Shown: piece by piece, positions 10,810-62,918 of the stretch
How the letters are laid out: every line of letters starts with the position of its first letter
Numbering within the stretch: position 1 is the first letter of the stretch
DNA from: Candidatus Uabimicrobium amorphum
Lineage (GTDB): Bacteria; Planctomycetota; Uabimicrobiia; Uabimicrobiales; Uabimicrobiaceae
NCBI RefSeq assembly: GCF_009002475.1
Contig: NZ_AP019860.1
Span: 1,054,001 to 1,118,000 of the forward strand
Length of the DNA stretch: 64,000 nucleotides
Direction of reading: 5' to 3'
Notes under the pieces: generated by a model
Databases searched by the model: none
The model's input: the letters and a program-made list of their open reading frames with translations, nothing else
Told to the model about the DNA's origin: nothing
Made by a program: the position numbers and the translations under genes

Positions 10810-12501
10810 ATGAATTTATCTTCAAAACTCTATCTTTTATATCGTATTGTAAAGTGGCGACTAACATGGAATCGACGTGATATCAACTACAAAGGGGCGG
10901 TTGATAATCCTAAGTTTATAAGTGCACGTCAAGCGGTGGAACTCATAAAAGACGATGATGTGTGTATGGTGGCAGGACTCGCAGGTAATCAAAGAATCTC
11001 TGTCATTTCTTGGGCATTGATAGAAAAATTTCACAAGGAAAAACATCCACAAAATTTAAAGCTCATTACCCCAGGAGGACAAGGTGGACGTGGGCGTGTT
11101 CCTGGAACACTGGAAGAATGGGCACTACCGGGAATGGTTTCCACATTAATCTCCGCACATCACGAGACATATCGTTCATTTTTAGAACTCGCCGACAAAA
11201 ATGGGGTGGCGTTGCAATGTATTCCTCAAGGACTTATTGCTCTTTTGGTTGAGGCGCAAAGCAAAGGAGAAAAATATATTTCCACAGAAACCGGCATTGG
11301 TACCTTTTGCGATCCTCGTGTCGAAGGGTCTTGTATTATGGACCCCACAGGAGAGAATATGCAGCTATGCGAGGTCGATGGCGAAAAACTCAAGTATCAC
11401 CTTCCACAAATCAACGTGGCTATTTTTAACGCCCCTGCTGCGGATAGCGAAGGCAATATCTATGTAAAGAATAGTGCGACGATTTGCGAATCGAAATATG
11501 CGGCATTGGCCGCGCGTCGCAACGGCGGTAAGGTAATTGCCAATGTGGGCAAAATAGTGGAAAAAAATGCGGCAGAAATCTATATACCTGCGGAAAATGT
11601 CGACGCTGTTGTTGTAAATCCCATCACCGAACAAACAGGTTTGTACCCACACATTAATTACAGTAAGGATCTAACTGTCCACCCACAATCGGACCTCGAT
11701 TACGGAATCGAAATGATTCGCTTTGTCAACCGTGTGGCTGGTATTACGCCAAAGCGCGGCAAAAAAGATTTCGTGCTGGCGAGATTAGGGGCAAAGATTC
11801 TCGCACAAGCTATTCACAAAGGAGCCTATGTAAATATTGGAACCGGGTTACCCGAAGAGATATGCTACAATTTATACAAAAACAACTGTCATCACGATGT
11901 CAAGTTCTTTACTGAAGCGGGTGCAATTGGTGGGATTCCCGCCCCAGGTATTTTCTTCGGTGCGGCAGCAGCACCCGAAAGCATTGTTTCCTCTCCCGAG
12001 ATTTTTCACAAAACCTACGAAAGGCTAGACGCGACAGTGCTCGGCTTTTTGCAAGTGGATAACAATGGCAATGTCAATGCATCGAAAAAAAGAGAGGGAG
12101 CACAAGGATTTGTCGGGCCAGGTGGATTTATCGATTTTACCAGCGTCTCGCAAAACATCTTTTTCGTCGGCTCATGGATGACCGGAGGAAAATTGAAGAT
12201 AACCGACAATTCTATCTCTATTCAAGCGAAAGGGAAACCAAAGTTTGTAGAAGAGGTGCAACAAATTACTTACAGTGGCAGTGAGGGACTACGTAAGAAA
12301 CAAAATGTATTTTTTATTACACATGTCGGTGTATTTATCTTAGAAAAAGAAGGCATTACACTAAAATATGTGATGCCCGGTATCGATATCGAGAAGGATA
12401 TCTTAAACTTTTCGCCAATGAAGATCGCAGTTGCCGACGATTGCCAAGAAGTAGATCGCTCGATCATTAGCGGTAAAGGTTTTACATTGTCTGTAGTTTA
12501 G
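10810..12501 (+). CDS. Fused family I CoA-transferase (acetate/propionate CoA-transferase type)
   Basis: A 563-residue cytosolic enzyme in which the alpha and beta halves of a family I CoA-transferase are joined. The N-terminal half (about 30-290) has ITPGGQGGRGRVPG-like substrate-loop residues. The C-terminal half (about 320-545) holds TEAGAIGGIPAPG with the catalytic glutamate at E369, the residue that forms the glutamyl-CoA thioester, followed by GFVGPGGFIDF. Relatives move CoA between short-chain acyl-CoAs and free acids such as acetate, propionate or 3-oxoacids. ATG follows GAGGCAAAAAC. The gene stands alone between repeat islands, so the pathway cannot be told from neighbours. The fused length fits the propionate/acetate type rather than split AtoDA. 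Confidence 0.9.
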   Translation: MNLSSKLYLLYRIVKWRLTWNRRDINYKGAVDNPKFISARQAVELIKDDDVCMVAGLAGNQRISVISWALIEKFHKEKHPQNLKLITPGGQGGRGRVPGTLEEWALPGMVSTLISAHHETYRSFLELADKNGVALQCIPQGLIALLVEAQSKGEKYISTETGIGTFCDPRVEGSCIMDPTGENMQLCEVDGEKLKYHLPQINVAIFNAPAADSEGNIYVKNSATICESKYAALAARRNGGKVIANVGKIVEKNAAEIYIPAENVDAVVVNPITEQTGLYPHINYSKDLTVHPQSDLDYGIEMIRFVNRVAGITPKRGKKDFVLARLGAKILAQAIHKGAYVNIGTGLPEEICYNLYKNNCHHDVKFFTEAGAIGGIPAPGIFFGAAAAPESIVSSPEIFHKTYERLDATVLGFLQVDNNGNVNASKKREGAQGFVGPGGFIDFTSVSQNIFFVGSWMTGGKLKITDNSISIQAKGKPKFVEEVQQITYSGSEGLRKKQNVFFITHVGVFILEKEGITLKYVMPGIDIEKDILNFSPMKIAVADDCQEVDRSIISGKGFTLSVV

Positions 12502-12577
12502 GTGGTATTCCTTCTCCCTCAGCATCGTCTTTGGGTTTGAAGGTGGGTTTTTATCGTAAGGATTCTTTCCCCGGATT

Positions 12578-12865
12578 GGTGCCCTCACCATCGAATTAGC
12601 AGTTACAGCGCAGCTGTAAACTGCTATTCTCATACCTCTCCCACAGGGAGAGGTGTAATGCGTCTCTTGTGTAAAAAACTAAATTCGCTTGAGTTGCGGG
12701 TCAAAAGTAGTGATTTAATCAATTTTTTAATTGAGGTTGTATTTTGGCTGCAACAAATAAAACCATAAGATAAATTCAGACGTGTTACGCCTCTCCCTGT
12801 GGGAGAGGCATGAGGCTTGTTGCTTTCAGCGTAGCTGAAATCTACAAGACGATGGTGAGGGCACC
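12578..12865. mobile_element. ~290-bp MITE-like element with 20-bp terminal inverted repeats, copy 1
   Basis: The left end is GGTGCCCTCACCATCGAATT; the right end carries its inverted complement (CGATGGTGAGGGCACC at 12850-12865). Inside are further hairpins: GCAGTTACAGCGCAGCTG.. near the left end, and two CCTCTCCC..GGGAGAGG stems. A second copy at 35761-36051 has the same order of blocks (for example TTGAGTTGCGGGTCAAAAGT). No long open frame with coding character is present, so this is a non-autonomous element. In this copy the flanks extend the inverted repeat outward (near 12520-12577 against the downstream array). Confidence 0.8.
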
Positions 12866-13043
12866 AATTCGGAGAAAGAATCCCTCCCCTCAAACCGAAA
12901 GACGATGGTGAGGGCACCAATTCGGAGAAAGAATCCCTCCCCTCAAACCGAAAGACGATGGTGAGGGCACCAATTCGGAGAAAGAATCTCTCCCCTCAAA
13001 CCGAAAGACGATGGTGAGGGCACCAATACGGAGAAAGAACCCC
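12848..13043. repeat. 53-bp tandem repeat, about 3.7 copies
   Basis: Units begin at 12848, 12901, 12954 and 13007, each opening GACGATGGTGAGGGCACC and running through GGAGAAAGAATC to CAAACCGAAA. The last unit is cut short just before the mscS stop codon (13049). Each unit contains the right terminal repeat of the 290-bp element plus flank, so the array looks like a duplication of the element end. Copies differ by only one or two bases, suggesting recent expansion. Units abut without spacers, so it is not a CRISPR. Confidence 0.9.
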
Positions 13044-13048
13044 TAATC

Positions 13049-14695
13049 TTACGATTCCCCATTTTTATTTTCATCTTCCTGTTCTCTATCCTCTTTATTT
13101 TTGTATATCTTTGTGGTGTTGCGTTTGGCGACATCAGAGGGCTTTAGTCTGCGCGTAACATTGGTGTCACGCGTACTTTCACTGTCACCATCCAAATTGA
13201 AAAATGAATATATTTTATTGAGTATTTTACTAATTTCTGCCTGAGTTTCGTGTACCGCTTCATCAAGGGTCTTTTGCGTGCTGGCTTTGCGTTGTACCAT
13301 TTTTTTGGTAAATTCGGTACTCAGTCGCGGCTTTTTCTTGAGTAGTGGTGACATACTATCTTTACTTACTTCCACGACGGTTGTATCGGTTATGGCCTTC
13401 ACCGTTGCAGAACGTTTTTCTCCGGTGAGAAGCGACATCTCTCCAAATTCCGAGCCTGCGCGCAATTGTGCTACTTCAATTTCAAAATCTCCGTCGTTTT
13501 TTATCACCACAACGGATCCTGAAATGAGGGCGAACAACGAGTCTCCATGGTCACCTTCGCTAATAATGGTCTCGCCAGCTTCGAAAACACGTAGGCGACT
13601 TCCTTCACTGAGTAGATGAATGTCTTCGATGTTGAGCGTTTTAAAAATGTCAATACCTTTTAGATATTCGGAAATACCCGGTTCGTTTATCTGTATTTGT
13701 GGCATATCACTTTTGGCGATGTGCATTTCCGTCATTGCCGGTGAAATACCATGTTTTGCCAATCTCCTTTGAATTTCCGACATGAGACTGGTTTTTCCAC
13801 CCCATTGGGCATTGAAGTCTTCAAAATAAATATAGACCGTATATTTCATTGGACGTCCAACTTCACTTATGTATATACGTGGGGGAGGGTCTTGTAAAAC
13901 CTTGGGCGTTTCTAGACAAGCATTTACCAGTATACGTTGCACAAATTCGGGGTTTATCTTACAATCAATCCATACTTGGAACCACAAAGCATATTTTTTT
14001 TCTGGTAAATCGAAGTTATGCACTATACTACTTGTCGCCACACTGTTGGGAATGACATATATACTGTTATTCCACGACAATAAACGCGTTGTGCGCCACG
14101 TAATGTCGACTACTTTGCCAATGATTCCTTCCTTTACCTCAATCCAGTCACCTATCTGATAAGGTTTTTCTACTGCGATTGCCAAACTGGAGAACAAGTT
14201 GCTGAACATACTTTGCAGTGATAAACCGATGATACCAGCAACAATTCCCGTGGGGATGAGTAGATTGCCGATGGATTTGCCAAAAACAAAGTTGGTAATG
14301 CCATATATGGTGAAAACAACTAAAATAGCGGTGGTGAGGCCACGTAGTAGCCGTGGACTTTCTTCTCCCGTGAGTTTAACAAAGCTTGTCGACCACCAAA
14401 AAAGGTCCAGTGCTTGAATCACTAGCTTTAGCCCCGCGATCCACAACACCGTTAGAAATCCGAGATGTATTTCGTAGAAGTATTTGTCTCCGGCAATTCC
14501 TAGTAACATGAGTTGCAAATCGATAAGTGCGAGTGGAATCAAAATGACGTTGCCAAGCCATGCAAATTCTTTATACGTTTTGCCAATGAATTGGACAACT
14601 ACCAATAAAAAGAGCAGTACTAGAAAAAAAAGTGACACAAAAAACAACGGAATATTGTCTATGGACATTCCAAAAATTTTCAAAAATATCGACAT
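13049..14695 (-). CDS. MscS-family mechanosensitive channel with C-terminal cyclic-nucleotide-binding domain
   Basis: A 548-residue membrane protein with four to five N-terminal helices (about 10-150). The MscS pore and beta domain follow (about 150-330; IGNLLIPTGIVAGIIGLSLQ, then GDWIEV and VVDITWRTTRLL). A cNMP-binding domain (about 345-465) has GDHGDSLFALISGSVVVI and the phosphate-cassette motif FGEMSLLTGEKRSATVKA. The last 80 residues are charged and probably cytoplasmic. MscS channels release solutes on hypo-osmotic shock; fused cNMP domains gate them by ligand in some bacteria. It is the last gene of a three-gene operon, 10 bases after the M48-like gene, and its stop abuts the tandem array. 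Confidence 0.93.
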   Translation of the reverse strand: MSIFLKIFGMSIDNIPLFFVSLFFLVLLFLLVVVQFIGKTYKEFAWLGNVILIPLALIDLQLMLLGIAGDKYFYEIHLGFLTVLWIAGLKLVIQALDLFWWSTSFVKLTGEESPRLLRGLTTAILVVFTIYGITNFVFGKSIGNLLIPTGIVAGIIGLSLQSMFSNLFSSLAIAVEKPYQIGDWIEVKEGIIGKVVDITWRTTRLLSWNNSIYVIPNSVATSSIVHNFDLPEKKYALWFQVWIDCKINPEFVQRILVNACLETPKVLQDPPPRIYISEVGRPMKYTVYIYFEDFNAQWGGKTSLMSEIQRRLAKHGISPAMTEMHIAKSDMPQIQINEPGISEYLKGIDIFKTLNIEDIHLLSEGSRLRVFEAGETIISEGDHGDSLFALISGSVVVIKNDGDFEIEVAQLRAGSEFGEMSLLTGEKRSATVKAITDTTVVEVSKDSMSPLLKKKPRLSTEFTKKMVQRKASTQKTLDEAVHETQAEISKILNKIYSFFNLDGDSESTRDTNVTRRLKPSDVAKRNTTKIYKNKEDREQEDENKNGES

Positions 14696-14705
14696 ACTAA
14701 AATCT

Positions 14706-15590
14706 CTACTTGGTTGCGGTGCGAATAATATTTTTCATTTTCTGTAGACGACCTGTTCTGACAACTAAACCATCTAAATCATACTCTGTAGAAAGTGCAT
14801 ATTGCAAACTTTCGTGGCGTTTTTTCTTTTGCGCATCACTAATGCTAATCTTATCGAGAACCTGCGGTGCAACGCGTGGATCGTAACCCACATCGGTTAT
14901 ATATCTTACGCCAAGCATATCCGCCTCTTGTTGTAATAATATTTCGGGTGTTAGTATCATTTGCTTATGCTCTAAAACCGCTTTATGGAAGTCTTTATCA
15001 GGAACGTCGTGTAGATTGGCAAGTTCTTTGCTCGCTTGGTATAGTATGCGTAACGATTGCGATTTCTTGATGGCGTTGAGCGCCTGTTTTTTGGCGATAG
15101 CTGCTACGGCATGTGCTAGAGCAAACGCCAGTTCTGCTTCCGAATCCAATGCAAGAATTAATCCTGAGGTGATAAATATAAAGCCTCCAGGAACGGCATA
15201 TACATTTTTCTCATTAGAATGAACCACTGCGGTATGATAAATGATACCTGGACGATGACTTTCGCGGCCAATAATATTTGTCAATATATTCATATATAGT
15301 CCAAGTTCTTGATTCATAATTGGTTCGCCAAAACCTGGTGTGGCATACATGGCGAGGCCAACATTTTCTCCGTAGCGTCTTTCGTCTTCGTATGGTATAT
15401 CACTCATTATCAATTTAACGGAACTCAATAATGAAGACGAGGCAGAGGAAGCGTTGCTTACAGATTTAGCTGTCGTATTACCAATCCCTGCTTTTCTTAC
15501 AAGATCTGAATTTAGCGCTTGGTCCATTTCTTTGTCGATGCTTGTGCATGATAAGCATAGTACTGTGCAACACAAATATACTATTTTCAC
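14706..15590 (-). CDS. M48 peptidase-like lipoprotein with degenerate zinc site
   Basis: A 294-residue lipoprotein: signal peptide ending in the lipobox LCLSC (Cys15). The body follows the M48/LoiP-like layout, including VYAVPGGFIFITSGL and AELAFALAH, but the HEXXH zinc motif reads H160-A-V-A-A164. The catalytic Glu and the second His are thus both Ala. The third-ligand region EADMLGVRY (E222) and GYDP are retained. It is probably proteolytically dead, acting as a scaffold or regulator at the membrane. Start GTG overlaps the phosphatase stop by four bases (GTGA), after AAAGGAC, so the two are translationally coupled; mscS follows 10 bases later. Confidence 0.8.
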   Translation of the reverse strand: MKIVYLCCTVLCLSCTSIDKEMDQALNSDLVRKAGIGNTTAKSVSNASSASSSLLSSVKLIMSDIPYEDERRYGENVGLAMYATPGFGEPIMNQELGLYMNILTNIIGRESHRPGIIYHTAVVHSNEKNVYAVPGGFIFITSGLILALDSEAELAFALAHAVAAIAKKQALNAIKKSQSLRILYQASKELANLHDVPDKDFHKAVLEHKQMILTPEILLQQEADMLGVRYITDVGYDPRVAPQVLDKISISDAQKKKRHESLQYALSTEYDLDGLVVRTGRLQKMKNIIRTATK

Positions 15591-16648
15591 TTTTTGTCCT
15601 TTTTTTTGATTTGCAGTTCAGAGGCGCGAATAGTTTGTTTTATCTTAACTTTACCATTTATATCGAAAATTTCTAAGGAGATCTGGACATCGTTGCCAAG
15701 AGTCGTCAATGTAACACCTCCAAAATTTTCGCCCAAGTAAGACTTCATACGGTGTTTGTTAGGTCCCAGTCCTTCCCACACTTCGGTTAAACCACTAGAG
15801 GTTAAATCGTAGATGGGGTACAACCCTGGAGTTTGCACTTTGGATAGTTCTGCCCAGTGGGTATCTCCACTTACGAAAAATACACCATTTGCCTGGGTTT
15901 TGCGAATTAAATTTAGCATACGTTGGTATTCATCAGGCATATTTTGCCATGCTTCCCACCCATTAAAATACGTTAAAAATTGTGTACTTGTGGCAATGAT
16001 GCGTACGGCGGCGGGTTTCTGTAATTCTTTTTCTAACCATTTCCACTGTGTTGCCCCCAGCATAGTTGCGCCCTCATAATTTACCGGAACATATGCCCCC
16101 ATATATTTTTTTTTGCGCTGTAGTTGTTTTTCCTGATCGAGTATACGCAGTAGCGGTGTACGAAAATATCGTACATCGAGCAAAATAATTTGAATTTTTT
16201 TGTCGCCTAACGTATAGAAATAAGAGGTATATATTCCCGGAGTTTTTCTGCGCTGCGACTGTAAGTCTTCCCCAAAAAAATCCAAAAAGATTTGCTGAGA
16301 TTCTTTTTTGCGACTATACGATGCTCCCGCATCATTGTAACCATAATCATGATCATCCCAAGTGGCGATAATCGGGCAGGTTTTTTTCAGCTTTTGAAAT
16401 CCAGGTTCTGCGGAAAAACGTTTGTATTTCGCACGCATGACATCCATATCGGAAGTATCGGCATAAATATTGTCTCCGAGAAATAAGAAGACATCTGGTT
16501 GGGATGCAACAACAGCGTCCCATATTGGCTGCGGCTTGTCTTGGTGGCAACAAGAACCAAACGCCAAGTAAAAGTTTGTTTTGCTTTCTTGGCATATACA
16601 AACGACCGACAGTATTACAAAGATAAATATCACAACAACACGAGACAT
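15587..16648 (-). CDS. PhoD-like alkaline phosphatase / metallophosphoesterase
   Basis: A 353-residue exported protein: signal peptide (about 1-19), then a metallophosphoesterase core of the PhoD type. The core has FGSCCHQDKPQPIWD, FLFLGDNIYAD, IIATWDDHDYGYND and FVSGDTHWAEL, which supply the aspartate, asparagine and histidine metal ligands. PhoD enzymes hydrolyse phosphomonoesters or diesters outside the cytoplasm with Ca and Fe; this shorter variant is widespread in planctomycetes and its substrate is unknown. First gene of the phosphatase/M48-like/MscS operon. ATG follows AAGGG. Confidence 0.9.
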   Translation of the reverse strand: MSRVVVIFIFVILSVVCICQESKTNFYLAFGSCCHQDKPQPIWDAVVASQPDVFLFLGDNIYADTSDMDVMRAKYKRFSAEPGFQKLKKTCPIIATWDDHDYGYNDAGASYSRKKESQQIFLDFFGEDLQSQRRKTPGIYTSYFYTLGDKKIQIILLDVRYFRTPLLRILDQEKQLQRKKKYMGAYVPVNYEGATMLGATQWKWLEKELQKPAAVRIIATSTQFLTYFNGWEAWQNMPDEYQRMLNLIRKTQANGVFFVSGDTHWAELSKVQTPGLYPIYDLTSSGLTEVWEGLGPNKHRMKSYLGENFGGVTLTTLGNDVQISLEIFDINGKVKIKQTIRASELQIKKKDKK

Positions 16649-49910: not shown

Positions 49911-52900
49911 TTGAAAAAGTGGTTAATACTCTTTACTGTCACCACGCTCTTTACTGTATATGCAGATGAAGCGTTATGGATGAGATATCCCGTGATCTCA
50001 CCTGACGGTAAAAATATTGCTTTTTGTTATCAGGGAGATATTTACACTGTTGCTACGGAAGGTGGACAAGCCAAGCAACTTACTCGTCACACGGCATATG
50101 ACTTTCAGCCGGTGTGGTCTCACGACGGACAATATCTTGCGTTTGCTTCAGATCGCTACGGTAATTTTGATGTATTCAAATTACATGTGGCTTCGGGAGA
50201 AACAACGCGCTTGACATATCATTCTTCGCGAGATTATCCATGGAGTTTCACCAATAGCGATAGCCACGTGCTTTTCTCTTCTGCACGTCTTGATTCCGTA
50301 ACGAATGCGGCCTTTCCTACACGAGCTTTAAGTGAACTCTACCAAGTTCCCGTTGCAGGTGGTCGCGTACAGCAGGTACTAACAACTCCCGCAGAAAAAG
50401 CACAGTACAACAGTTCAGGTGAAAAACTGTTATACCAAGATGTGAAGGGTTTTGAAGATAAGTGGCGTAAGCACCATGTTTCTTCGATCACACGAGACAT
50501 TTGGCTTTACGATGTAAAGACACAAAAACACACAAAAATTACCCAGTTCCGCGGTGAAGATCGCAATCCTATGTGGAATGACGACGATAGTTTTTTTTAT
50601 CTTTCGGAACAAAGTGGTTCTATAAATATTTGGAAGCACTCCTTTAAAGAAAATAAGGCTTCGCAAATCACTAACTTTGAAAATCACCCGATTCGTTTTT
50701 TGAGTAGATCTGTCGATGGTCTACTGTGTTTTGGATACAATGGTGAGATTTATATCTTACAAGAGGGACAAAACCCGATTAAGGTAAAAGTTGAAGTCTA
50801 CGGCGGTCCGCAAAAGAACGATAAAGAAACCTTGAATATCCGTGGTGGTATCACAGAAATGGCACTTTCACCAAATGGTAAGGAAATCGCTTTTATTTAT
50901 CGTGGAGAGGTATTTGTCACCTCGACAAAATATGCGACAACGAAACAAATTACCAAAAGTTTTGAGCAAGAGCGTTCGGTCGACTTTAGTCCTGATGGTC
51001 GTTCTCTCATTTATGCGGGTGAAAAAAATGGAAGTTGGAATATTTACGAAGCGTCGATAAAACGCAAAGATGAAAAATATTTTTATGCGGCGACATTGAT
51101 TGAAGAAAAAGCGATTGTTTCTTCGCAAGTAGAGACATTTCAACCGAGTTATTCTCCGGATGGTAAAGAAATTGCTTACCTCGAAGAACGCACGACCCTA
51201 AAAGTTTACAATATCAAAGAAAAGTTCTCTCGTAAAGTTTTGGACGGCAAGTACAATTACTCCTATGCCGATGGTGATCAGTGGTATCAATGGTCTCCGG
51301 ATAGTAAGTGGTTTTTAGTTACCTTTCTCGGTAATAACCGTTGGATGGACGAAATAGGACTCGTCGCTGCTGATGGGAAATCCGAAGCGATTAATCTAAC
51401 ACAAAGTGGTTATAGCGATTATGCGCCAAAGTGGGCCATGAAAGGCAAAGCGATTACTTGGTTTTCCGATCGTCATGGTATGCGTTCCCATGGTAGCTGG
51501 GGAAGCCAAGACGATGTTTACGCCATGGTTTTTGATGAAGAAACTTTTGATTATCTGAAACGCAGTAAAGAAGACCAAGAACTTCTAGAAGAACTGCAAA
51601 AGGAAAAGAAAAAGGACGCCAAAGACAAGAACAAGAAAAAAGAGGATGTTCTTAAGATCAATCTCGATGGAATTGAAGATCGCAAGTTGCGGCTAACCAT
51701 GCACTCTTCTGATCTGGCCGACGCTATTTGGTCCGCAGATGGAAAATCATTATTCTACCTGGCTAAATTTGAACGCGGTTACGATTTGTGGGTTCACAAA
51801 ATTTTTGATTACCAAACACGCCTATTGACAAAGTTAAATGCCAATCGTGCGGGACTTGTCATGGATAGCACCGGAAACAATTTGTACCTCCTCGCCGACG
51901 GACGCATTTTTAAAGTAAACGCTGCGAGTGGACAATTGTCCTCCATTTCTTTCTCCGCAAACATGACCGTGGATCATTCGAAAGAGAGAGCATACCTTTT
52001 CGAACACGTATGGCGCCAAGTAAAGAAAAAATTCTATGTCAAAGACTTACATGGTGTCGATTGGGAGTTCTACAAAAAAGAGTACGCGAAATTCTTGCCG
52101 CACATCAACAACAAATATGATCTAGCGGAAATGTTTAGTGAACTTTTGGGAGAACTCAATGCTTCTCATACCGGATCTGGTTATATTTATCGTCCACGCA
52201 ATGGCGAAAACACTGCAGCGTTGGGGGTGTTTTTTGATCATACCCATAATGGTGCAGGTTTGAAAATTGCGGAAGTGATGGATAAAAGTCCATTGAAAAA
52301 AGCCAGCTCAAAAATCAAAGCGGGAATCATTATCGAAAAAATAAACGGCCAAGAGATAAAAAGCAACGACAACTATCATAAATACCTAAATGGTTGTGTG
52401 AATAAACGTACGTTGATTCACCTCTACAATCCGAAGAAAAATGAACGTTGGGAGGAAGTTGTTCGTCCGATAAACGTACGTGCGGAAAATGAACTCGCTT
52501 ATCAAAGATGGGTGAAACAGCGCCGTGCTCTAACCGAAAAATTATCTAAGGGTAAATTGGGTTATGTTCATATTCGTGGCATGAACGATGCGAGCTATCG
52601 CGAAATTTACTCCGAAATTTTAGGACGGCATAATGATAAATTGGCCATTGTTGTTGACACGCGCTTTAACGGTGGCGGATGGTTACATGACGATTTAGTC
52701 ACACTGTTGAGTGGAAAAAAGTACTTCACTTTTTATCCACGTAAGCAAGACAATATGGGCGGTGAGCCTATTTTTAAGTGGAGCAAACCGTCTATTGTTG
52801 TGATGAGTGAGGGCAATTACTCTGACGCACACTTATTTCCTCTAGCGTATAAAACTTTGAAAATAGGTCGTCTTGTTGGAATGCCTGTCGCAGGAACGGG

Positions 52901-53108
52901 AACCGCTGTATGGTGGGAAACATTGCTCGGTGGTGATATGTTTTTTGGTATACCACAAGTTGGGATGCTCGACAACGAAGGTAACTACTTAGAAAACAAC
53001 GAATTGCAACCAGATGTTCTCGTAAATAACGACCCTGGAGAGGTGGCAAAAGGTCGTGACCAACAATTGGAGAAGGCAATAGAAGAATTGTTAAAAGAAG
53101 TGGAATAG
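49911..53108 (+). CDS. Tricorn protease homologue (S41), exported
   Basis: A 1065-residue protein of usual tricorn length. Start TTG is supported by AAAGGAGG five bases upstream and a signal peptide (about 1-18). Two N-terminal propellers built of WD-like PDG repeats (for example ISPDGKNIAF, FSPDGRSLIYAG) span about 20-690. Then comes a tricorn helical core, a PDZ domain (about 770-860) and the S41 core. Catalytic residues seen: H753 in NASHTGSG and S971 in SEGNYSDAH. Family members cut peptides into short pieces in large assemblies; exported bacterial forms degrade proteins in the periplasm. A K/E/D-rich insertion (about 555-580) separates the propellers. Monocistronic. Confidence 0.94.
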   Translation: MKKWLILFTVTTLFTVYADEALWMRYPVISPDGKNIAFCYQGDIYTVATEGGQAKQLTRHTAYDFQPVWSHDGQYLAFASDRYGNFDVFKLHVASGETTRLTYHSSRDYPWSFTNSDSHVLFSSARLDSVTNAAFPTRALSELYQVPVAGGRVQQVLTTPAEKAQYNSSGEKLLYQDVKGFEDKWRKHHVSSITRDIWLYDVKTQKHTKITQFRGEDRNPMWNDDDSFFYLSEQSGSINIWKHSFKENKASQITNFENHPIRFLSRSVDGLLCFGYNGEIYILQEGQNPIKVKVEVYGGPQKNDKETLNIRGGITEMALSPNGKEIAFIYRGEVFVTSTKYATTKQITKSFEQERSVDFSPDGRSLIYAGEKNGSWNIYEASIKRKDEKYFYAATLIEEKAIVSSQVETFQPSYSPDGKEIAYLEERTTLKVYNIKEKFSRKVLDGKYNYSYADGDQWYQWSPDSKWFLVTFLGNNRWMDEIGLVAADGKSEAINLTQSGYSDYAPKWAMKGKAITWFSDRHGMRSHGSWGSQDDVYAMVFDEETFDYLKRSKEDQELLEELQKEKKKDAKDKNKKKEDVLKINLDGIEDRKLRLTMHSSDLADAIWSADGKSLFYLAKFERGYDLWVHKIFDYQTRLLTKLNANRAGLVMDSTGNNLYLLADGRIFKVNAASGQLSSISFSANMTVDHSKERAYLFEHVWRQVKKKFYVKDLHGVDWEFYKKEYAKFLPHINNKYDLAEMFSELLGELNASHTGSGYIYRPRNGENTAALGVFFDHTHNGAGLKIAEVMDKSPLKKASSKIKAGIIIEKINGQEIKSNDNYHKYLNGCVNKRTLIHLYNPKKNERWEEVVRPINVRAENELAYQRWVKQRRALTEKLSKGKLGYVHIRGMNDASYREIYSEILGRHNDKLAIVVDTRFNGGGWLHDDLVTLLSGKKYFTFYPRKQDNMGGEPIFKWSKPSIVVMSEGNYSDAHLFPLAYKTLKIGRLVGMPVAGTGTAVWWETLLGGDMFFGIPQVGMLDNEGNYLENNELQPDVLVNNDPGEVAKGRDQQLEKAIEELLKEVE

Positions 53109-55262: not shown

Positions 55263-56801
55263 TTATTGCGTAATTTGATTTGCCGCAACAAATGTGTTGT
55301 CGATATCTTGCAATGGAATCTTGTGTTTACCAATAGCTAACTCACTCCACTTTTGCGCCGAAAGATTCGCTAAGTAGGAAAAAGAGCTAGTGAATTTTTT
55401 GCTGGTGTATTTGCCTACTAGGTCTCGTGCTTCTTGTTGCATATCTTCGTTACGGGGAATAAAAAGACGGACCTTTTCGCCTGCAAATTTTAAATGTAGT
55501 TCGCGGCGCGTGCGTTCGGAAAAAGCAACCGTAGTACGACGGTCGAGAAGCGGTGTTGCATAAAGTGCTGTTGCCACTGATTTGTAAGAAAATACAATGG
55601 GACATTTGGCAATATATTCCATGAGGCTTTTGAGTGTTGTGGCGAATGAATCAAGGTGTTGTAGAATCTCTACTACTTCGCTGGTAATTTGTTGATTGCT
55701 CTTCATTGGATGTTTTAATTTATGGTGATAATGTAGACTGTTTCCCAGTTTTTTCTTCTCGGGAGATTTTGCGCGTAAAATATCGTCGACAACAGGTGTA
55801 TAAAAATCTAAATATTGTAGGGCGATTTCTACATTTTTCGTTTTTTGTCCGTCGCGGAACTGGGTAATAAAATTTTTATATAGAAGCAGCAATTGTTGCA
55901 AAGGCACACCACATTGGTTTTCCTGCAAGGTTGGATCGTAAGTGGCGGTGTGTTTTTGAGAAAAGCTTGTTGCATGTTGGAAAAAATTCTGTAGGTATTT
56001 GCGCATATAACCCCAAAGACTAGTATAAGTGTGACGTTTTTTACCATAGCCAGTGAAAGGCTTTTTTAGGGATTCATTCATGAATAACTGGTCGACTTTG
56101 CGTTGTAAAGCGGCGGTTTCTATTCTGAGAATGGGCGCGGCGGCCTCTTTGTCAATAAAATGCTTTAGCCGATGATTTTGTTTTATTACTTCGGCATATA
56201 AAGTATTTATATCTTCTATTTGCGGTTGGTGCTGTGGACGAAATCCTGCGGGAGGAACGAGTAGTCTACGCAGTATCATGTCATTGACATTGTCGTACTT
56301 TCGTAACATGGCAAACAATTGTTGACTGTCTTGTTCCAACATGTCATATATCATAGCGCGAAATTTTTCTACACTTAAATTCATACGTGGAGCCAAGTAT
56401 TCCACCATAAACGGATGAATTACTGCTGTTGCCAAATGAATATGCCCTTGGTGTTTATAATAGGCGTCACTGTCCGCCAAAGTGACTCCACAGCGATCGC
56501 ATGCATATTCTACATTGACTTTCTTTTTTTTATATTTACCGCAATAGCACGTGTATGGTTCTTTGGAATTGAAGATTCTTTCGCAGTATAAGCCGTCCTT
56601 TTCGGCGCTATTTGTACGCGGATTTATCATAAGAGGGCTGGTTACTTTTCCAAAACTTAAAGTATCGTACTGCTTTGTGGTTAATGGTATGATTTGCATG
56701 TTGCTCTCGCTGTGTACAACATCAAGACCAAGTGCCTGGCAATATTTGATGAACCATTGCAAGCTCGAAGTACAGTGGCAATTATTCATAGTACTGTTCA
56801 T
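55263..56801 (-). CDS. RNA polymerase beta'-like protein (N-terminal half), active site lost
   Basis: A 512-residue protein starting at ATG 56801 (GAGGAG 10 bases upstream; another ATG 12 bases on). It aligns with the first ~500 residues of bacterial RpoC: SFGKVTSP and KDGLYCERIF (49-77); the zinc ribbon CYCGKY..CDRCGV with all four cysteines (C85, C87, C101, C104); GHIHLATAVIHPF; LVPPAGFRP; DINTLYAEVIKQNHRLK; and QCGVPLQQLLLLYKNFI (297-312). At the catalytic loop it aligns without gaps: ADFDGDQMAVHVP against LKFAGEKVRLFIP (437-449), so the three Mg-binding Asp are K438, A440 and E442. The switch-2 arginines are also gone. It ends ~70 residues later. Probably folds, cannot polymerise RNA. Overlaps the beta-like gene by 20 bases. 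Confidence 0.88.
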   Translation of the reverse strand: MNSTMNNCHCTSSLQWFIKYCQALGLDVVHSESNMQIIPLTTKQYDTLSFGKVTSPLMINPRTNSAEKDGLYCERIFNSKEPYTCYCGKYKKKKVNVEYACDRCGVTLADSDAYYKHQGHIHLATAVIHPFMVEYLAPRMNLSVEKFRAMIYDMLEQDSQQLFAMLRKYDNVNDMILRRLLVPPAGFRPQHQPQIEDINTLYAEVIKQNHRLKHFIDKEAAAPILRIETAALQRKVDQLFMNESLKKPFTGYGKKRHTYTSLWGYMRKYLQNFFQHATSFSQKHTATYDPTLQENQCGVPLQQLLLLYKNFITQFRDGQKTKNVEIALQYLDFYTPVVDDILRAKSPEKKKLGNSLHYHHKLKHPMKSNQQITSEVVEILQHLDSFATTLKSLMEYIAKCPIVFSYKSVATALYATPLLDRRTTVAFSERTRRELHLKFAGEKVRLFIPRNEDMQQEARDLVGKYTSKKFTSSFSYLANLSAQKWSELAIGKHKIPLQDIDNTFVAANQITQ

Positions 56802-57909
56802 AGTCGTTGTACTCCTCATCGCCTTTGTGATCCTCATAGGGGTTTTGCCCTGGTACATTTTCGTAATCGTCGTCACGATCGTAGTCGTTATAGTGGTCTT
56901 CGGCGTAATCGTCGTATTCATCTTGGAATTTTTCCACCAAACACTCTTCGGCAAACAAATGCTTACTCAGATGTTGATAACCAATTAGAGCGACCATATT
57001 ATGCATCTCATTTTCACTTTCTTCGATTTTGTGCTCATAGGCATATGTCTCCCTACATAACTCCAGTTCTCCTAGTGCGTATTTACCGAGATAAACGAGA
57101 TCATTGAGGTTTGGAGGGCATTTTTTCTTCCCCATCATGCGTGCGATGTAGTTGACATTCTGCCCTGTTTTTTCGTTGGCCGCTGCAAAAAGGCGATAGC
57201 CGAAATTTTGCTCTAAACCAGATTTTGACGGATAGCGCCATAGGTACAGATGTTGTATGCTGTGTAGCTGGTCGACCATGGTCGAGGACGGATGAATGAC
57301 AGCATGAAGATCACGTTGTTTTGGTAAAATGACGGTGCCCTCGGATATGGTGGAAATAACTCCTGTGTTTCCTTGGTTATCGCGCAAAATATCACCAATT
57401 TCCAGAGAATACATCGTATTCACACAAACGTCGGCTCTTGCTAAACTGCGAACTCTTTGGTCTGTCCAACTCAAGGGAATAGAGTTTACCGAAACCACAA
57501 CACCGGGATCAGTAAACGGGTAATAAATAGAGTCGTCTTTGACATTTTCGGCACAACGTCCAAAGATAGCATGTAAAAGTTTTTCTTCCGGACTAAGTTC
57601 GAAGGGGACATCTTTGGGTTTTACGGCCCCTATGAGAGTGTCACCTTTTTTTACGGTAGTCCCTACCATTACAATACCATGCTCGTTCAAATTTTTGCTA
57701 TTCGCAGGAGGCAGTACATCAGATGTAATTTCGGTCCTACCAAACATAGATTCGGTCATTTCGTATGTAAATTTATGGTTGGCGGCCGATCCGAAAAGAG
57801 GTTTACTGCACACATTTAACCATATCGCATTTTCTATTACGCGAAAAGGGGGTAAATCGCATACCAAAGTGGTTAATTTTGGTGTTGGATGAGTTTTTAT
57901 AGGGATCAT
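56782..57909 (-). CDS. RNA polymerase beta-like protein (C-terminal part), active-site lysines lost
   Basis: A 375-residue protein aligning with the C-terminal part of bacterial RpoB. Clear blocks are TEITSDVLP, LNEHGIVMVGTTVKKGD, TLIGAVKPKD and ELSPEEKLLHAIFG (59-117), LEIGDILRDNQGNTGVIS (169-186) and LGKYALGELELCRETYAYE (274-292), the counterpart of the FGEMEVWALEAYGA clamp segment. In RpoB the GDK..GNKGV motif holds two universal active-site lysines (E. coli K1065, K1073); here they are I174 and T182. After residue 328 comes a 47-residue tail rich in D, E and Y. ATG 57909 has a weak SD. Followed by the beta'-like gene with a 20-base overlap, the rpoB-rpoC order. Confidence 0.88.
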   Translation of the reverse strand: MIPIKTHPTPKLTTLVCDLPPFRVIENAIWLNVCSKPLFGSAANHKFTYEMTESMFGRTEITSDVLPPANSKNLNEHGIVMVGTTVKKGDTLIGAVKPKDVPFELSPEEKLLHAIFGRCAENVKDDSIYYPFTDPGVVVSVNSIPLSWTDQRVRSLARADVCVNTMYSLEIGDILRDNQGNTGVISTISEGTVILPKQRDLHAVIHPSSTMVDQLHSIQHLYLWRYPSKSGLEQNFGYRLFAAANEKTGQNVNYIARMMGKKKCPPNLNDLVYLGKYALGELELCRETYAYEHKIEESENEMHNMVALIGYQHLSKHLFAEECLVEKFQDEYDDYAEDHYNDYDRDDDYENVPGQNPYEDHKGDEEYNDYEQYYE

Positions 57910-58031: not shown

Positions 58032-58466
58032 CTATGGAAATAGTTTTGCTACCAAATCAACAAAAGGATCATCAATACCTGGGCTGTAAAAATCATAGCT
58101 TTCTTCTGCAGGAGCGTCCAGGTGACTGCCGAGTACGCGTAGAGTACCTATGAGGTTTTTACCTTGGTAAAAGTCGATAATGTATTTCGCCACGTCACCC
58201 ATCTTGATTCTTTTGCCTGATCCTTCTTGGGGAATTTTTGCTAGAGTGTTTAACCACAATTGTACCGTAGCGGCATCGGTAATATCTTTAGTTTTGGGAT
58301 TGGTTTCATCGGACATTTTTGCGTAGTAGGTGATGCTAATTTTATCGGTATTGGGGAAGGAAATACAATTTTCCACAGCATGATCCTCATTATTGTTGAC
58401 ATTGCTTGTGTCTGGATTACAGCCTGCTATCAAAAGTACTATACTCAGTAAAGCGATCATTCTCAT
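58032..58466 (-). CDS. Small hypothetical lipoprotein
   Basis: A 144-residue lipoprotein with lipobox LIAGC (Cys near 16). The mature part (ISITYYAKMSDETNPKTKDI, AKYIIDFYQGKNLIGTLRVLG) looks like a small alpha/beta domain with no known motif. ATG follows ATAGGAGTGTAAT, nine bases after the stop of the 1480-residue gene, so it belongs to that operon. Relation to the downstream polymerase-like pair is unclear. Confidence 0.8.
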   Translation of the reverse strand: MRMIALLSIVLLIAGCNPDTSNVNNNEDHAVENCISFPNTDKISITYYAKMSDETNPKTKDITDAATVQLWLNTLAKIPQEGSGKRIKMGDVAKYIIDFYQGKNLIGTLRVLGSHLDAPAEESYDFYSPGIDDPFVDLVAKLFP

Positions 58467-58475
58467 ATTACACTC

Positions 58476-61400
58476 CTATCCATGAAGGAATTTACGATGT
58501 AGCGTCATTGCCACTTTGTAACGGCGTACGAAGTTTTTATATTCGTCTATTTGCCTTTGTTGCTCTTGAGGCGACATTTTAATACGTTGTTTCTTGATGT
58601 ATTTTTGCGCAAGTTTTCGCGTCCAACACTCCATTTCCAACTCAACGATGGGATTTATGGTTTGGCGCTCATTGTGCTTTTTGCATTCCGCGATTAAATC
58701 GCTCTTGCTCCATTTTCTGACAGAGACCAGATAATGACAGTTGCACGTCATCTGTATGATACGTTGAATTTTTTCTTGGCATTCTTCTATGCAAACTTGA
58801 ATATCGTTAGGATCTTGTGGAAGGTAGCCTTGCTGTGCATTTTCCCATAAGTCTTTTTCGTAAGAGTGCAATGGAAATTTTTGCAAATGAAAAGCTCTAT
58901 TTTCTTGCACTAGGCTATCTAATAGAACGCGGTACGAGACGAACATGTCGACATACATTTTTTCGATTTCGCGGCGCTCGTATTTCATACAAAACGCTAT
59001 GATGAACGAATCTTTTATTGGCAATACTATTTCCATCGGATTGGGAATAAAACTTTTCAAGAAATCGACAATGCTGTTTTGGATATTTTTTTGAATTTGT
59101 TGTGCATTGACAAATGCCAAATCTCGCTTCATTTGGTCAAGATGCCCGCGTAATTCAATGACGAGTTTTAGAGCAAATGTCTGTTGTGGGGTTTCGTTGT
59201 CGTATACACTATAACCCGCAAAATAAAAAGTGCGACTCATTTGCTCACGTGCGACACTGAGATCTTCTTTGATCATGTCGATTTGTTGGTCGATATTTTT
59301 TATACTTAGGCGTTTTTGAATGGTTTTATAGTTTTTCCACGTTTCAAAAATACCGCGAACATAACTTGTCACCGCTTCGACAACGACATCACCAAAGTGG
59401 GCGAGCATGATGAAACGCAGGCCAATAAAACGTTGTATAGACTTCATGATCATTGTTGACTGTGCAACTAGGCGCTCAATAGGACCCGGGTGCCCTGCAT
59501 CATCACTGAGCCATTTTTCAAACCATCTTTGTGGTAATATCTCTACATTGTCATGATATTCGAGCTGTAGTTGTTCTTTTTCTTTTTCTAAGTCCAATAG
59601 CCCCTTGGCTACTTGCTCGGGTTGTATGGCTAAGTCTTGTTTTTGAACTTGTGGTTCTGGAATTTCGGGTTGTGGTTCGATCTCTTCTCCACCAGGCATT
59701 TGTTTTCGTATGCCCAGTTCCAATTCCGGTTCGACAATCATTCCGCCAATACCACCGCCAAATTCCTGTTCTGATGGGGAAATAACCTCCGCTTTTTCTG
59801 GACGCGGTTTCATCGGAGCGGGTGGTGGAATCATGGACTTCGCCGGTGCCGCCGCAGGAGGAGGTGGTGGCGGTGGCGGTGCCGCTGCCGGAGGTGGGGC
59901 TGATGGTCGTGCACCACCAAACCCTAGTGATGGAGCGGCTGGTGCTCCAGTTGGGGGAGCCATACCACCTGCAGCGGGCATCGGTGGTTTTGGTGAAGGT
60001 TTTTTGGTTTTTTTCTTGAGAGGCGACAAGCTTCTAGGCATATCGGCTTTTAAGTAAGCAGGTTTTGCATCTAAGGTGATACCACGCTCTTGCTCCATTT
60101 CCATGAAGTCCATGGTAGGCTTTATCGGCTTTTGTTTGTTGTATACTGTGCGTTTATCTTCTAAAGTAAGTGGAGAATCTTTACCGTAGATAAATGCTTC
60201 TTCAAGGTTGTCGAAAAATGAAAAATGGGAAAGCATATCACGTATAGACGTTTGCGTACTCACCATAAGGCAGTATTCACTTGCCAGTATTGTGCTAAAG
60301 TCTTCGGTTGGGGTATCGTAGAAACGAATGACAACGAAAAAATTGATTCCGCGTGCAAAATAATCATCTAAAAGATCTAGTAGGTAATTTTGTAATTCGC
60401 GACGTGTTGCTTTGGTATGCAGATGAACAACAACAAAATCAAGGCGATTTTTTTCCCCGGGTATTTGTTGCGGATTATAAGAGTATGTTTGGTAATGTTT
60501 CAATTGTATGAATATATTTGGCAAGGTAACATCTTTTTCTTGTTGCAGAGAACCGGAAATGTTTTGCTTTTCGAATAATAAAGGCTCTTTAAAAATAGAG
60601 TAGGTAGATTCGTGCAGTTGAATCCACTTAGTTTCAGGTAAAACAGGGTAAGGAGCTTTGGCAAACATCAAAAATTGCGGAAGCAAGTCCTCAGGAGTAA
60701 AATGAGGAGGTGAATACGAAATACGCTGCGGAAGTGTCGGTTTTTCAATAAATTTTACATTAGGTAGTGGAGGAGTTTCTTGCAAAATAAGTTCTATGTC
60801 TTTTTCACTTAGCCATGCCAATGTATTTTGCGGAAGGGAGTCTTCTTGCAACAATAAGTGATAAATTTGTTGTTGCACGCTACCAACAAGAGACATGTGG
60901 TGTTTTTTTGTGGCCATGTGTGACAAAACGACAAATGCTTCACGAAGTTCCGCAGTGTGTTGCTGCAAAATATTTTCGATACTCCACATGTCATGCGAAA
61001 GAGGTAGAGTACTCAATGCCTTTATGGCTTCGCGCTGTATGTCGACATCGAGTTGTGGAATCAACTCTGCAAGTCCTGCATCATCGCGTATTAATTTTAG
61101 GTACTCCATCACATTTCGTGGGTAGGTGAGCCATTGCGATTTTTGTCGATAGAGATTTTTGCGATAAAATTCACGGTTGTGTCGTAAATTTTCTTTGATG
61201 ATATCTTGGATCGGTTGCATTGCGTATTGCCAAAAGATTTCAAATGTTGCAGGGAGTTTGATTTTTATATATTGCAAATATGTGAATATTTTTTTGTCAT
61301 TGTGCTGATAACTCAAATGCAGAAAGTCTTCTTTGTTTAAAACGGCATTGGTAACACCGAGAGTATACAAAATCCATGCGTCTACTTCTTCATTTCCTGA

Positions 61401-62918
61401 GTATCGTAGTAAAGTGCGTATGTCGGACTCCGTTAGTTGTGGTTTCAGGTGAGCCGTCGCACAAAGTACTCTGATGAAATCTTCGTTGTTCAAAGTGCGT
61501 TGGTGCAACATGACGCGCATGTTTTGCAAATACACTTCGCGCAATCCTGTCGAAGGCAAATCTAATATTCTATCACTCACAAATAAAAATAACTTCATCT
61601 CTGTGAAAGAGAGAACTTCCTGGAGAAAATTTTCTTCATGCGATGGGATTTGCACAATCCACTCGATGATCCTTGTCTTGTGAGTAGGTACCAAGGCAAA
61701 ATCTGTTTGTGAGGCGAGTATGTCGGTTAAATATACATAGTGCTGAGGATGTTGAACGACTAAGTTACCTAATGTATCTAAAGTATACATTGTAATTTCT
61801 GGGTCGGCGTATGGTAAAAATTGTTGCAGAGTCGAATAGGTGACTGTGTACGTGGCACCAAGTTGTGCGATGACACTCACGAAATATTTTTGGCTTTGGT
61901 GACTGTGTTGTTTTTGGTTAAGAGCGTCACATAATACTTGAACAATAAGTTCGTCTTGTTTATTCATGCTGGCGAGTAAGCACAACAAGTTTTGCTGGAA
62001 TGTTTCATCGCAATTGTTGGGAAGTTCCATAATATTTTCCAACACGACTTCTATATATTCTTCGCGAGGGTCTTGTAACGCACGGTTTAATCCCAGAGTT
62101 TTCAGGTGGAAATCATTGCAACGCAGCAATTCGACAACGCGAATATGTTCGTTGACCAAATTGTGCGGGATGACATTCGCAATTAGGTGTAGAAAAAAAT
62201 CTTTGTACTGTGGAACATCAAAAATGTGATCGCTAAAAATGATCGGCCAGTCCGCAGTTTTTTCATTACGGAATAAATGATAGAGTGACAAAAAGTAACT
62301 TTCTACATCGTTGTCGGAATACAATTCTTCGATCACTTCCAAGTCATCGCTGTAGAGAAGATCTATTTTGTCTTGTAAATATTTCAGCTCTTCGTTGTGT
62401 AGTTGCGCAATTTTTGTGCGTATGCTTTGCGGAAGTGGGAAATGAAAAAAAGCCAGCCACAAAGCATACGCGGCAATAGACGTTTCGCACTCTAGCGCTT
62501 GTGCAATAAACTCTTCGCCAAAATTTCCCTTATTTTGTGCAATTTTCATCATGAGAGAAAATATATAACTCGCATGCAGGTTGTTTTGCAAAAGATGTTG
62601 GTGCCACATTTTGTTTTTGGGCAGAAGTTGCAAATAACGCAATGTGGTTTGTTGGTGACTTTCCTTTACATAGCAATTATCCGGCACTTCTAATTTCGCG
62701 TTTTCTAAGAATTGTATTGCACTGAGATAGTGTTGTGGTTTTTCTTCTAAAACAGATAACCAGCATTCTGCAAGAAAATATGCGCACGCGCTGTTTTGTG
62801 AAAAAAAGTCTATTGCGGTGGCATCTTTTGTATTGTGGGTAAAGTGAAGAAATTGTTGCCTTTTTTCTTCAAATTCCCTCAGTGACTTTACGTGAGAAAA
62901 ATCTTCCATTTTTAACAC
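58476..62918 (-). CDS. 1480-residue hypothetical protein: helical solenoid, proline-rich linker, helical C-terminus
   Basis: I do not recognise this large protein. There is no signal peptide or clear membrane helix. Residues about 1-720 are irregular helical repeats with HEAT-like character (for example PEITMYTLDTLGNLVVQHPQ). Residues about 743-916 form a compact alpha/beta region (LDFVVVHLHTKATRRELQNY, INFFVVIRFYDTP). A Pro/Ala/Gly-rich linker follows (about 960-1090, with an unbroken run of eight prolines near 1015). The C-terminal part is long, charged helices to the end (MSPQEQQRQIDEYKNFVRRY). The layout suggests a cytoplasmic scaffold. ATG follows GGACG, three bases after the esterase stop; the lipoprotein and polymerase-like genes follow downstream. 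Confidence 0.85.
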   Translation of the reverse strand: MLKMEDFSHVKSLREFEEKRQQFLHFTHNTKDATAIDFFSQNSACAYFLAECWLSVLEEKPQHYLSAIQFLENAKLEVPDNCYVKESHQQTTLRYLQLLPKNKMWHQHLLQNNLHASYIFSLMMKIAQNKGNFGEEFIAQALECETSIAAYALWLAFFHFPLPQSIRTKIAQLHNEELKYLQDKIDLLYSDDLEVIEELYSDNDVESYFLSLYHLFRNEKTADWPIIFSDHIFDVPQYKDFFLHLIANVIPHNLVNEHIRVVELLRCNDFHLKTLGLNRALQDPREEYIEVVLENIMELPNNCDETFQQNLLCLLASMNKQDELIVQVLCDALNQKQHSHQSQKYFVSVIAQLGATYTVTYSTLQQFLPYADPEITMYTLDTLGNLVVQHPQHYVYLTDILASQTDFALVPTHKTRIIEWIVQIPSHEENFLQEVLSFTEMKLFLFVSDRILDLPSTGLREVYLQNMRVMLHQRTLNNEDFIRVLCATAHLKPQLTESDIRTLLRYSGNEEVDAWILYTLGVTNAVLNKEDFLHLSYQHNDKKIFTYLQYIKIKLPATFEIFWQYAMQPIQDIIKENLRHNREFYRKNLYRQKSQWLTYPRNVMEYLKLIRDDAGLAELIPQLDVDIQREAIKALSTLPLSHDMWSIENILQQHTAELREAFVVLSHMATKKHHMSLVGSVQQQIYHLLLQEDSLPQNTLAWLSEKDIELILQETPPLPNVKFIEKPTLPQRISYSPPHFTPEDLLPQFLMFAKAPYPVLPETKWIQLHESTYSIFKEPLLFEKQNISGSLQQEKDVTLPNIFIQLKHYQTYSYNPQQIPGEKNRLDFVVVHLHTKATRRELQNYLLDLLDDYFARGINFFVVIRFYDTPTEDFSTILASEYCLMVSTQTSIRDMLSHFSFFDNLEEAFIYGKDSPLTLEDKRTVYNKQKPIKPTMDFMEMEQERGITLDAKPAYLKADMPRSLSPLKKKTKKPSPKPPMPAAGGMAPPTGAPAAPSLGFGGARPSAPPPAAAPPPPPPPPAAAPAKSMIPPPAPMKPRPEKAEVISPSEQEFGGGIGGMIVEPELELGIRKQMPGGEEIEPQPEIPEPQVQKQDLAIQPEQVAKGLLDLEKEKEQLQLEYHDNVEILPQRWFEKWLSDDAGHPGPIERLVAQSTMIMKSIQRFIGLRFIMLAHFGDVVVEAVTSYVRGIFETWKNYKTIQKRLSIKNIDQQIDMIKEDLSVAREQMSRTFYFAGYSVYDNETPQQTFALKLVIELRGHLDQMKRDLAFVNAQQIQKNIQNSIVDFLKSFIPNPMEIVLPIKDSFIIAFCMKYERREIEKMYVDMFVSYRVLLDSLVQENRAFHLQKFPLHSYEKDLWENAQQGYLPQDPNDIQVCIEECQEKIQRIIQMTCNCHYLVSVRKWSKSDLIAECKKHNERQTINPIVELEMECWTRKLAQKYIKKQRIKMSPQEQQRQIDEYKNFVRRYKVAMTLHRKFLHG

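Follow-up and report, generated by a model that had tools for sequence, protein, structure and literature searches.

Two overlapping genes in a 64,000-nucleotide stretch of Candidatus Uabimicrobium amorphum DNA (contig NZ_AP019860.1, positions 1,054,001 to 1,118,000; hereafter the window, whose own numbering we use for its features) encode short homologues of the RNA polymerase subunits RpoB and RpoC, judged by their sequences, which we call RpoB* and RpoC*. RpoB* has kept the flap, the site of sigma region 4 in the true enzyme, and RpoC* has kept the zinc ribbon and the clamp helices, the site of sigma region 2, so that the pair carries two sigma sites and little else that is recognizable. 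Both proteins are apparently maintained by selection. Tentatively, and with considerable room for doubt, we propose that they form a decoy of the core polymerase on which one or more sigma factors dock.

Retained and lost parts of RpoB* and RpoC*

Both genes lie on the minus strand: rpoB* (56782..57909; 375 aa) encodes a flap/C-terminal RpoB paralogue and rpoC* (55263..56801; 512 aa) an N-terminal RpoC paralogue, each about a third of the length of its ordinary counterpart. The two frames are open over these coordinates and overlap by 20 nt. An earlier note on this DNA had seen a good Shine-Dalgarno sequence for the second gene, and reading the sequence again we found AGGAG 10 nt upstream of the rpoC* ATG at 56801; the version of RpoC* in the list of open reading frames (ORFs) is longer, beginning at a TTG before this ATG, and it was the TTG-start version that was used in the Pfam search. 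A promoter scan placed a TATAAT-like site upstream of rpoB*, a result that is not telling, as there were 15 sites compared with 9.6 (SD 3.1) in shuffles.

The homology to the RpoB C terminus and the RpoC N terminus, which the earlier note had drawn from block-by-block alignment, was confirmed by profile searches. RpoB* matched PF00562 (E 8.9e-15) and RpoC* matched PF04997 (E 9e-25), both over the Pfam cut-off, and the NCBIfam beta and beta' models were matched at E 1.5e-24 (86 bits; full-length cut-off 896) and E 8.2e-40 (136 bits; full-length cut-off 963), respectively. In searches of PDB sequences, RpoB* residues 45–209 aligned with Staphylococcus aureus beta 792–961 (E 2.1e-18) and RpoC* aligned with the beta' chain 6wvj_D (E 6.5e-34; residues 44–146 to 19–120 and 175–357 to 226–416), with RNA polymerase large subunits making up all 55 matches of RpoB* and the best 60 of the 90 for RpoC*. 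VIA structure alignments, core only, identified the core folds of both predicted models as polymerase folds; whole-model Foldseek alignments gave a poor root-mean-square deviation, since low-confidence regions make up most of each model.

By its sequence, RpoB* is mainly a flap followed by a strongly degenerated C-terminal part. The flap domain (residues 45–145; 57475..57777, minus strand) keeps 28 of 45 conserved RpoB columns, compared with 31 of the 96 aligned columns after it, and residues 41–143 are 46% identical to the host's own RpoB. Within it, the flap-tip helix (residues 105–120; 57550..57597, minus strand), the docking element for sigma region 4 in true RpoB, is identical in 10 of 10 conserved columns and retains all five published sigma region 4 contacts (E898, K900, L901, I905, and F906; contact list from PMC10216364). 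The alignable part of RpoB* begins at about Escherichia coli beta residue 812, and the protein ends in an acidic, tyrosine-rich tail (residues 327–375; 56785..56931, minus strand; 20 D/E and 10 Y in 49 residues), which may, as a matter of speculation, be a nucleic-acid mimic or a surface mask. Alignment with the E. coli and host RpoB showed a dead catalytic segment (residues 172–187; 57349..57396, minus strand) in which K1065 and K1073, which we take to be the catalytic lysines, are replaced by I and T, and further changes include R1106S and H1237Y.

In RpoC*, the zinc ribbon proved as intact as the earlier note had held, with all four cysteines (C85, C87, C101, and C104; 56490..56549, minus strand) and 9 of 12 conserved columns kept. 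The clamp helices (residues 195–241; 56079..56219, minus strand), which in true RpoC dock sigma region 2 and NusG, keep 19 of 41 conserved columns, and their fold was predicted with block means of the predicted local distance difference test (pLDDT) of 91–95 over residues 201–240. Beyond them, the rudder keeps one of nine aligned conserved columns and the lost switch-2 segment (residues 263–284; 55950..56015, minus strand) 3 of 21. Clamp helices were thus better kept than rudder and switch 2 combined (19/41 versus 4/32, p 0.002; in this and the equivalent tests below, gaps count as lost and columns are treated as independent). RpoC* ceases to be alignable before the catalytic NADFDGD; no such motif aligned, and columns 441–475 keep 3 of 28 conserved positions. 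The C-terminal part (residues 345–512; 55266..55769, minus strand) has no clear relatives: residues 341–512 gave no phmmer match among the 45 proteins compared, pLDDT over residues 345–512 is mostly below 50, and PADLOC returned one weak match (E 0.0014).

As the earlier note had supposed, the host genome, a single contig of 9,503,417 bases, has a full rpoBC elsewhere. The ordinary genes, rpoB with 1258 aa and rpoC with 1441 aa, both uninterrupted, lie at 5.37 Mb, 4.3 Mb from the pair (the window lies at 1.05–1.12 Mb), among ORFs that by eye resemble ribosomal-protein and elongation-factor genes.

The earlier note had also argued for selection rather than decay, and here our results agree. We randomly mutated codons of the host's own rpoC and rpoB to the observed identity in 300 runs, without indels. 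The simulated RpoC* region (290 codons) acquired 13.5 stops on average (minimum 5) and the RpoB* region (169 codons) 6.1 (minimum 1), with 0 of 300 runs stop-free for either, and the real genes have none in these regions or anywhere in the 887 codons of the pair. The stop-codon simulation therefore rejects neutral decay of the pair. Identity at codon positions 1, 2, and 3 was 0.47, 0.58, and 0.32 for RpoC* and 0.51, 0.61, and 0.39 for RpoB*, position 2 being the most and position 3 the least conserved in both, and neither stops nor equal change at all codon positions, as in a pseudogene, were found.

Related clamp modules in the phylum

The exact pair was present in no other genome searched. 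The earlier note had pointed to related genomes as the place to look for the same genes, and what turned up instead, in three further genomes from the phylum, were related modules that by their sequences consist of a clamp without catalysis. A PF04997 survey of 392 genomes of the phylum gave more than one match in 11, comprising three with clamp modules (G000, G001, and G048), two with fused second polymerases (G003 and G333), and six others. G008, G142, G218, G244, G251, and G288 were rejected as modules, their pieces being complementary or nearly so, as in a split or frameshifted rpoC. The module of G163 was found with the G048 fusion as query against 30 genomes, and PF04997 gives it only E 0.25; the survey misses such pieces, and four modules, RpoC* included, are therefore a lower bound for what was searched.

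One module (L024:9708-10775; 355 aa) belongs to the metagenome-assembled genome 'Planctomycetota bacterium isolate OFTM357' (G001), which is in the same family as the host. It runs from the beta' start through the clamp helices, followed by about 30 residues and a stop, and carries a CxxC...CxC cysteine pattern at the former zinc-ribbon site. The G048 fusion (L072:6783-9248; 821 aa), from another family, joins an RpoB end to an RpoC start and has neither the catalytic lysines nor the zinc-ribbon cysteines; over 75 residues its clamp helices and the ordinary RpoC of its genome are 67% identical, with much weaker homology on either side. A divergently oriented gene for an ECF-type (extracytoplasmic function) sigma factor (L072:9959-10594, plus strand; Pfam regions 2 and 4) lies about 700 bases from this fusion and is followed by an ORF that looks kinase-like by eye. 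The G163 module (L086:7991-8638) has its start cut by the contig end and stops right after the clamp helices.

Clamp helices are present in all four modules, two of which end just after them and so come near the engineered beta' 1–314 fragment. R278, I291, and E295 are kept in all four and R275 in three (G163 was read by eye). Of the eight published sigma region 2 contacts, these same three, R278, I291, and E295, are the ones kept in RpoC*; the OFTM357 protein keeps six, and the G048 fusion keeps six and has K281, the residue found in 28 of the 31 reference rows. Compared with rudder plus switch 2, the clamp helices were better kept in OFTM357 (27/41 versus 4/32, p 4e-6) and G048 (28/41 versus 8/32, p 2e-4). 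Simulated decay of the OFTM357 module produced a mean of 9.4 stops and no stop-free run in 300. Selection is less clear for the G048 fusion (mean 4.0 stops), because 2.3% of runs were stop-free and codon position 3 was not below position 1 (0.53, 0.61, and 0.54). Taken by themselves, the clamp-helix stretches are too short for this test to decide, with 8.3% (RpoC*) and 68.7% of runs stop-free.

No RpoC* ortholog was found in 40 relatives and no RpoB* ortholog in the 6 genomes searched. Against 5.8 billion proteins, the only full-length match was in each case the window's own protein, the next coverage being 64% for RpoC* (best 120 of 150 matches) and 38% for RpoB* (13 matches). P0003, P0023, P0059, P0109, P0117, P0123, and P0133 were rejected, as by eye they look like broken or cut ordinary subunits; the remaining matches were judged from domain lists only. 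The OFTM357 protein as query matched itself at 100% and otherwise reached at most 42% identity among the best 120 of 3010 matches; six further matches were set aside, as their sequences look ordinary or cut. One of these six, P0199, is a 555-aa piece on a 13.9-kb contig that spans an RpoB end and an RpoC start; its letters are ordinary, and it may be a merger of two genes. In 84,980 species genomes, RpoC* found nothing (none of 41 pattern matches was confirmed) and the OFTM357 protein found only itself, in scans from which records of the window's own genome were possibly left out. A query coverage of 80% was reached by 0 of the 63 plasmid records that matched and by 0 of the 27 phage records; in the best 12 of each, the annotated genes are rpoC and the others are unannotated. 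The phage families matched are two PHROGs whose function has no name and a third that is called RNA polymerase. A match at G000:C1:6271476 (E 0.07) was dismissed as chance-like, the local ORFs being kinase-like and WD40/caspase-like by eye.

A possible sigma decoy and its rivals

Excerpts of PMC10216364, on E. coli sigma32, and of PMC5101437 place sigma region 2 on the beta' clamp helices and sigma region 4 on the beta flap tip. If the pair is a sigma decoy, RpoB* and RpoC* would associate with each other as the beta C terminus and the beta' N terminus do in the true polymerase clamp, the clamp helices of RpoC* would hold region 2, and the flap tip of RpoB* would hold region 4. The effect would be sequestration, the docked sigma being kept off the real enzyme. 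A decoy or sigma binder was among the ideas of the earlier note, and the kept flap, zinc ribbon, and clamp helices fit it. The genome holds 38 Sigma70_r2 matches, and the altered contacts of RpoC* would point to a specialized sigma partner, not to all 38 sigma-like genes; R275Q, L285K, and M298A in particular suggest either a special partner or an argument against sigma altogether.

Several further observations weigh against sigma docking. Five of the eight contacts are altered in RpoC* (R275Q, R281H, L282F, L285K, and M298A). Conservation of its clamp helices does not exceed that of the remaining aligned N-terminal part (19/41 versus 43/93, p 0.57), and in the equivalent comparison with the upstream aligned part only G048 had better-kept clamp helices (p 0.03; OFTM357, p 0.30). 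In the G048 fusion the flap-tip helix is gone, and none of the ORFs beside the OFTM357 module was seen to contain an RpoB part; a flap is thus not shared by all modules. In a tree of 26 rows, both RpoC modules are very long, unplaced branches, and their common origin was not rejected (approximately unbiased test, p-AU 0.31). No Sigma70_r2 match lies within the window, the nearest being about 18 kb from the pair. Structure prediction of each protein alone, a check that the earlier note had named, bore out the polymerase folds of the flap and clamp core and was weak outside them, with mean pLDDT of 43.6 and 55.5 for the two. Finally, in excerpts of PMC4057154, RpoA and RpoB were recovered in a pull-down with an N-terminal beta' piece from a different bacterium, which means that such pieces can also bind core subunits.

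That pull-down, together with the polymerase folds of the core, would suit a subunit-like regulator that attaches to a part of the real RNA polymerase or stands in for it, as a partner of the clamp, of assembly, of alpha, or of omega. We consider this unlikely, because the C-terminal segment through which beta pairs with beta' is poorly kept (16 of 53 aligned in columns 1200–1342) and switch 2 and the rudder are lost in RpoC*.

The folds could also have been put to use outside polymerase factors, for example as a zinc-ribbon DNA or protein binder that serves a neighbor. Upstream of the pair on the same strand lie a 144-aa ORF (58032-58466; lipoprotein-like by eye, with a Pfam lipobox match below cut-off), a 1480-aa protein (58476-62918, minus strand), and an esterase, and these neighbors, the intact zinc-ribbon cysteines, and the roughly 170 C-terminal RpoC* residues without clear relatives would all be in keeping with such a role. 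The last 350 residues of the 1480-aa protein, for which no convincing Pfam or NCBIfam match was found, form a multi-copy family with nine matches in the genome, itself included, that is present in 6 of 6 members of the order and 0 of 10 other genomes. This domain is order-wide and multi-copy, and five of the genomes that have it are ones where no RpoB*/RpoC* pair turned up; the 1480-aa protein is therefore not specific to the pair, and the earlier note's suggestion of a structural module for this neighbor finds no backing here. Moreover, the perfectly kept flap-tip helix would not be needed for such a role, and we regard the reuse of the folds as rather improbable. Elsewhere in the window, 49911-53108 (plus strand) encodes a 1065-aa tricorn-like protease with PD40 repeats, Tricorn_C1, and an S41 peptidase.

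A variant of sigma docking would make the pair and its kin natural polymerase-free promoter modules that, in the manner of the engineered beta' 1–314 fragment, grip or open −10 DNA via sigma. Engineered beta' 1–314 with sigma suffices for promoter melting, as told in PMC4057154, and sigma region 2 on the clamp helices has a higher affinity for −10 single-stranded DNA (PMC12000874; excerpts of both). Sigma itself would then become a promoter-bound repressor or marker. We hold this to be quite doubtful.

It is doubtful in still greater degree that the pair soaks up or carries elongation factors, with NusG-type proteins at the clamp helices and NusA, which binds the flap tip, on RpoB*: the second NusG site, the beta gate loop, presumably sits before beta residue ~812 and hence outside RpoB*. 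In excerpts of PMC7819879, NusG requires both the clamp helices and the beta gate loop, and its clamp-helix site overlaps that of sigma; the flap tip binds other factors too, such as phage P7 (PMC3985653, in excerpt), and these overlaps are what would favor a sink.

We give very little credence to the idea that the pair is left over from a second RNA polymerase, complete and divergent. Fused second polymerases do occur, one in the same order (G003) and one in the phylum (G333), but RpoC* resembles its own RpoC (E 6e-24) and the G003 fusion at E 0.07 only. The G003 protein (L049:5374-12201, minus strand) is one chain of 2275 aa in which RpoB and RpoC are fused; it is very divergent, and its GADFDGD motif is apparently intact. 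It adjoins a sigma-54-activator AAA+ protein that matches the PADLOC RtcR (CARF-AAA-HTH) models over its AAA part, the locus has further coordinates at 12232-13719 (minus) and 14137-15933 (plus) on L049, and a Cas10 protein is close by; possibly, this fusion is a second RNA polymerase linked to type III CRISPR signaling. G333 has, on a 9-kb contig, a second RNA polymerase in the form of a 2039-aa fusion with NADFDGD (L073:1572-7691, plus strand) and, on another contig, an ordinary rpoC, and G086 has two separate RpoB-like frames of 1269 and 1308 aa (C2:434972-436387 and C3:345150-345899).

A functionless, decaying fragment of a duplicated rpoBC junction is least credible of all: an RpoB end and an RpoC start in this order are what one segmental duplication of the operon middle would leave, no orthologous pair was found in the searches described above, and the RpoC* clamp-helix stretch alone is too short to tell, but the stop-free frames, the codon-position pattern (0.58 versus 0.32 and 0.61 versus 0.39 for positions 2 and 3), and the retained zinc-ribbon cysteines and flap tip speak against it.

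Comparison with known systems

We found no description of a truncated or decoy RpoB/RpoC regulator in the open-access literature searched, in line with the earlier note, which knew of no bacterial system built from such a pair. To our knowledge, sigma regulators copy or wrap sigma, and none copies polymerase. If the sigma-decoy reading is right, a regulator built from the core enzyme would be a new way of controlling sigma factors, the modules would be natural versions of a minimal sigma-clamp complex that has until now been an engineered tool, and the switching on of sigma by the clamp could be studied in a living system. Four cases are at hand within a single phylum, a pair of which come from the family of the predatory, engulfing Uabimicrobium, and these make the ideas testable.

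The pair shares with RpoB and RpoC the flap, zinc-ribbon, and clamp-helix folds and motifs and the order rpoB then rpoC, and differs from them in its length of about a third, the missing NADFDGD, the changed catalytic lysines, and the lost switch 2 and rudder. Known anti-sigma domains are small helical domains, and no Pfam anti-sigma domain appeared among the RpoB*/RpoC* matches at E up to 10. Like anti-sigma factors (ECF class I and others; excerpts of PMC7406223), the pair would block the core-binding face of sigma region 2, and possibly that of region 4, but it is made of core-polymerase paralogues. The full-length second rpoB of the actinomycete Nonomuraea, which is described as giving a second form of RNA polymerase (PMC5431353, in excerpt), is likewise an extra subunit paralogue, whereas RpoB* and RpoC* are truncated and without catalytic motifs. 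The engineered beta' 1–314 with sigma, a minimal module for promoter melting (Young et al. 2004, as cited in excerpts of PMC4057154), is built from the same part of the enzyme, the N terminus of beta', zinc ribbon and clamp helices included. The OFTM357 protein ends about 30 residues past the clamp helices, and RpoC* includes them. That fragment is man-made, whereas these are natural genes, and the pair in the window adds a flap protein.

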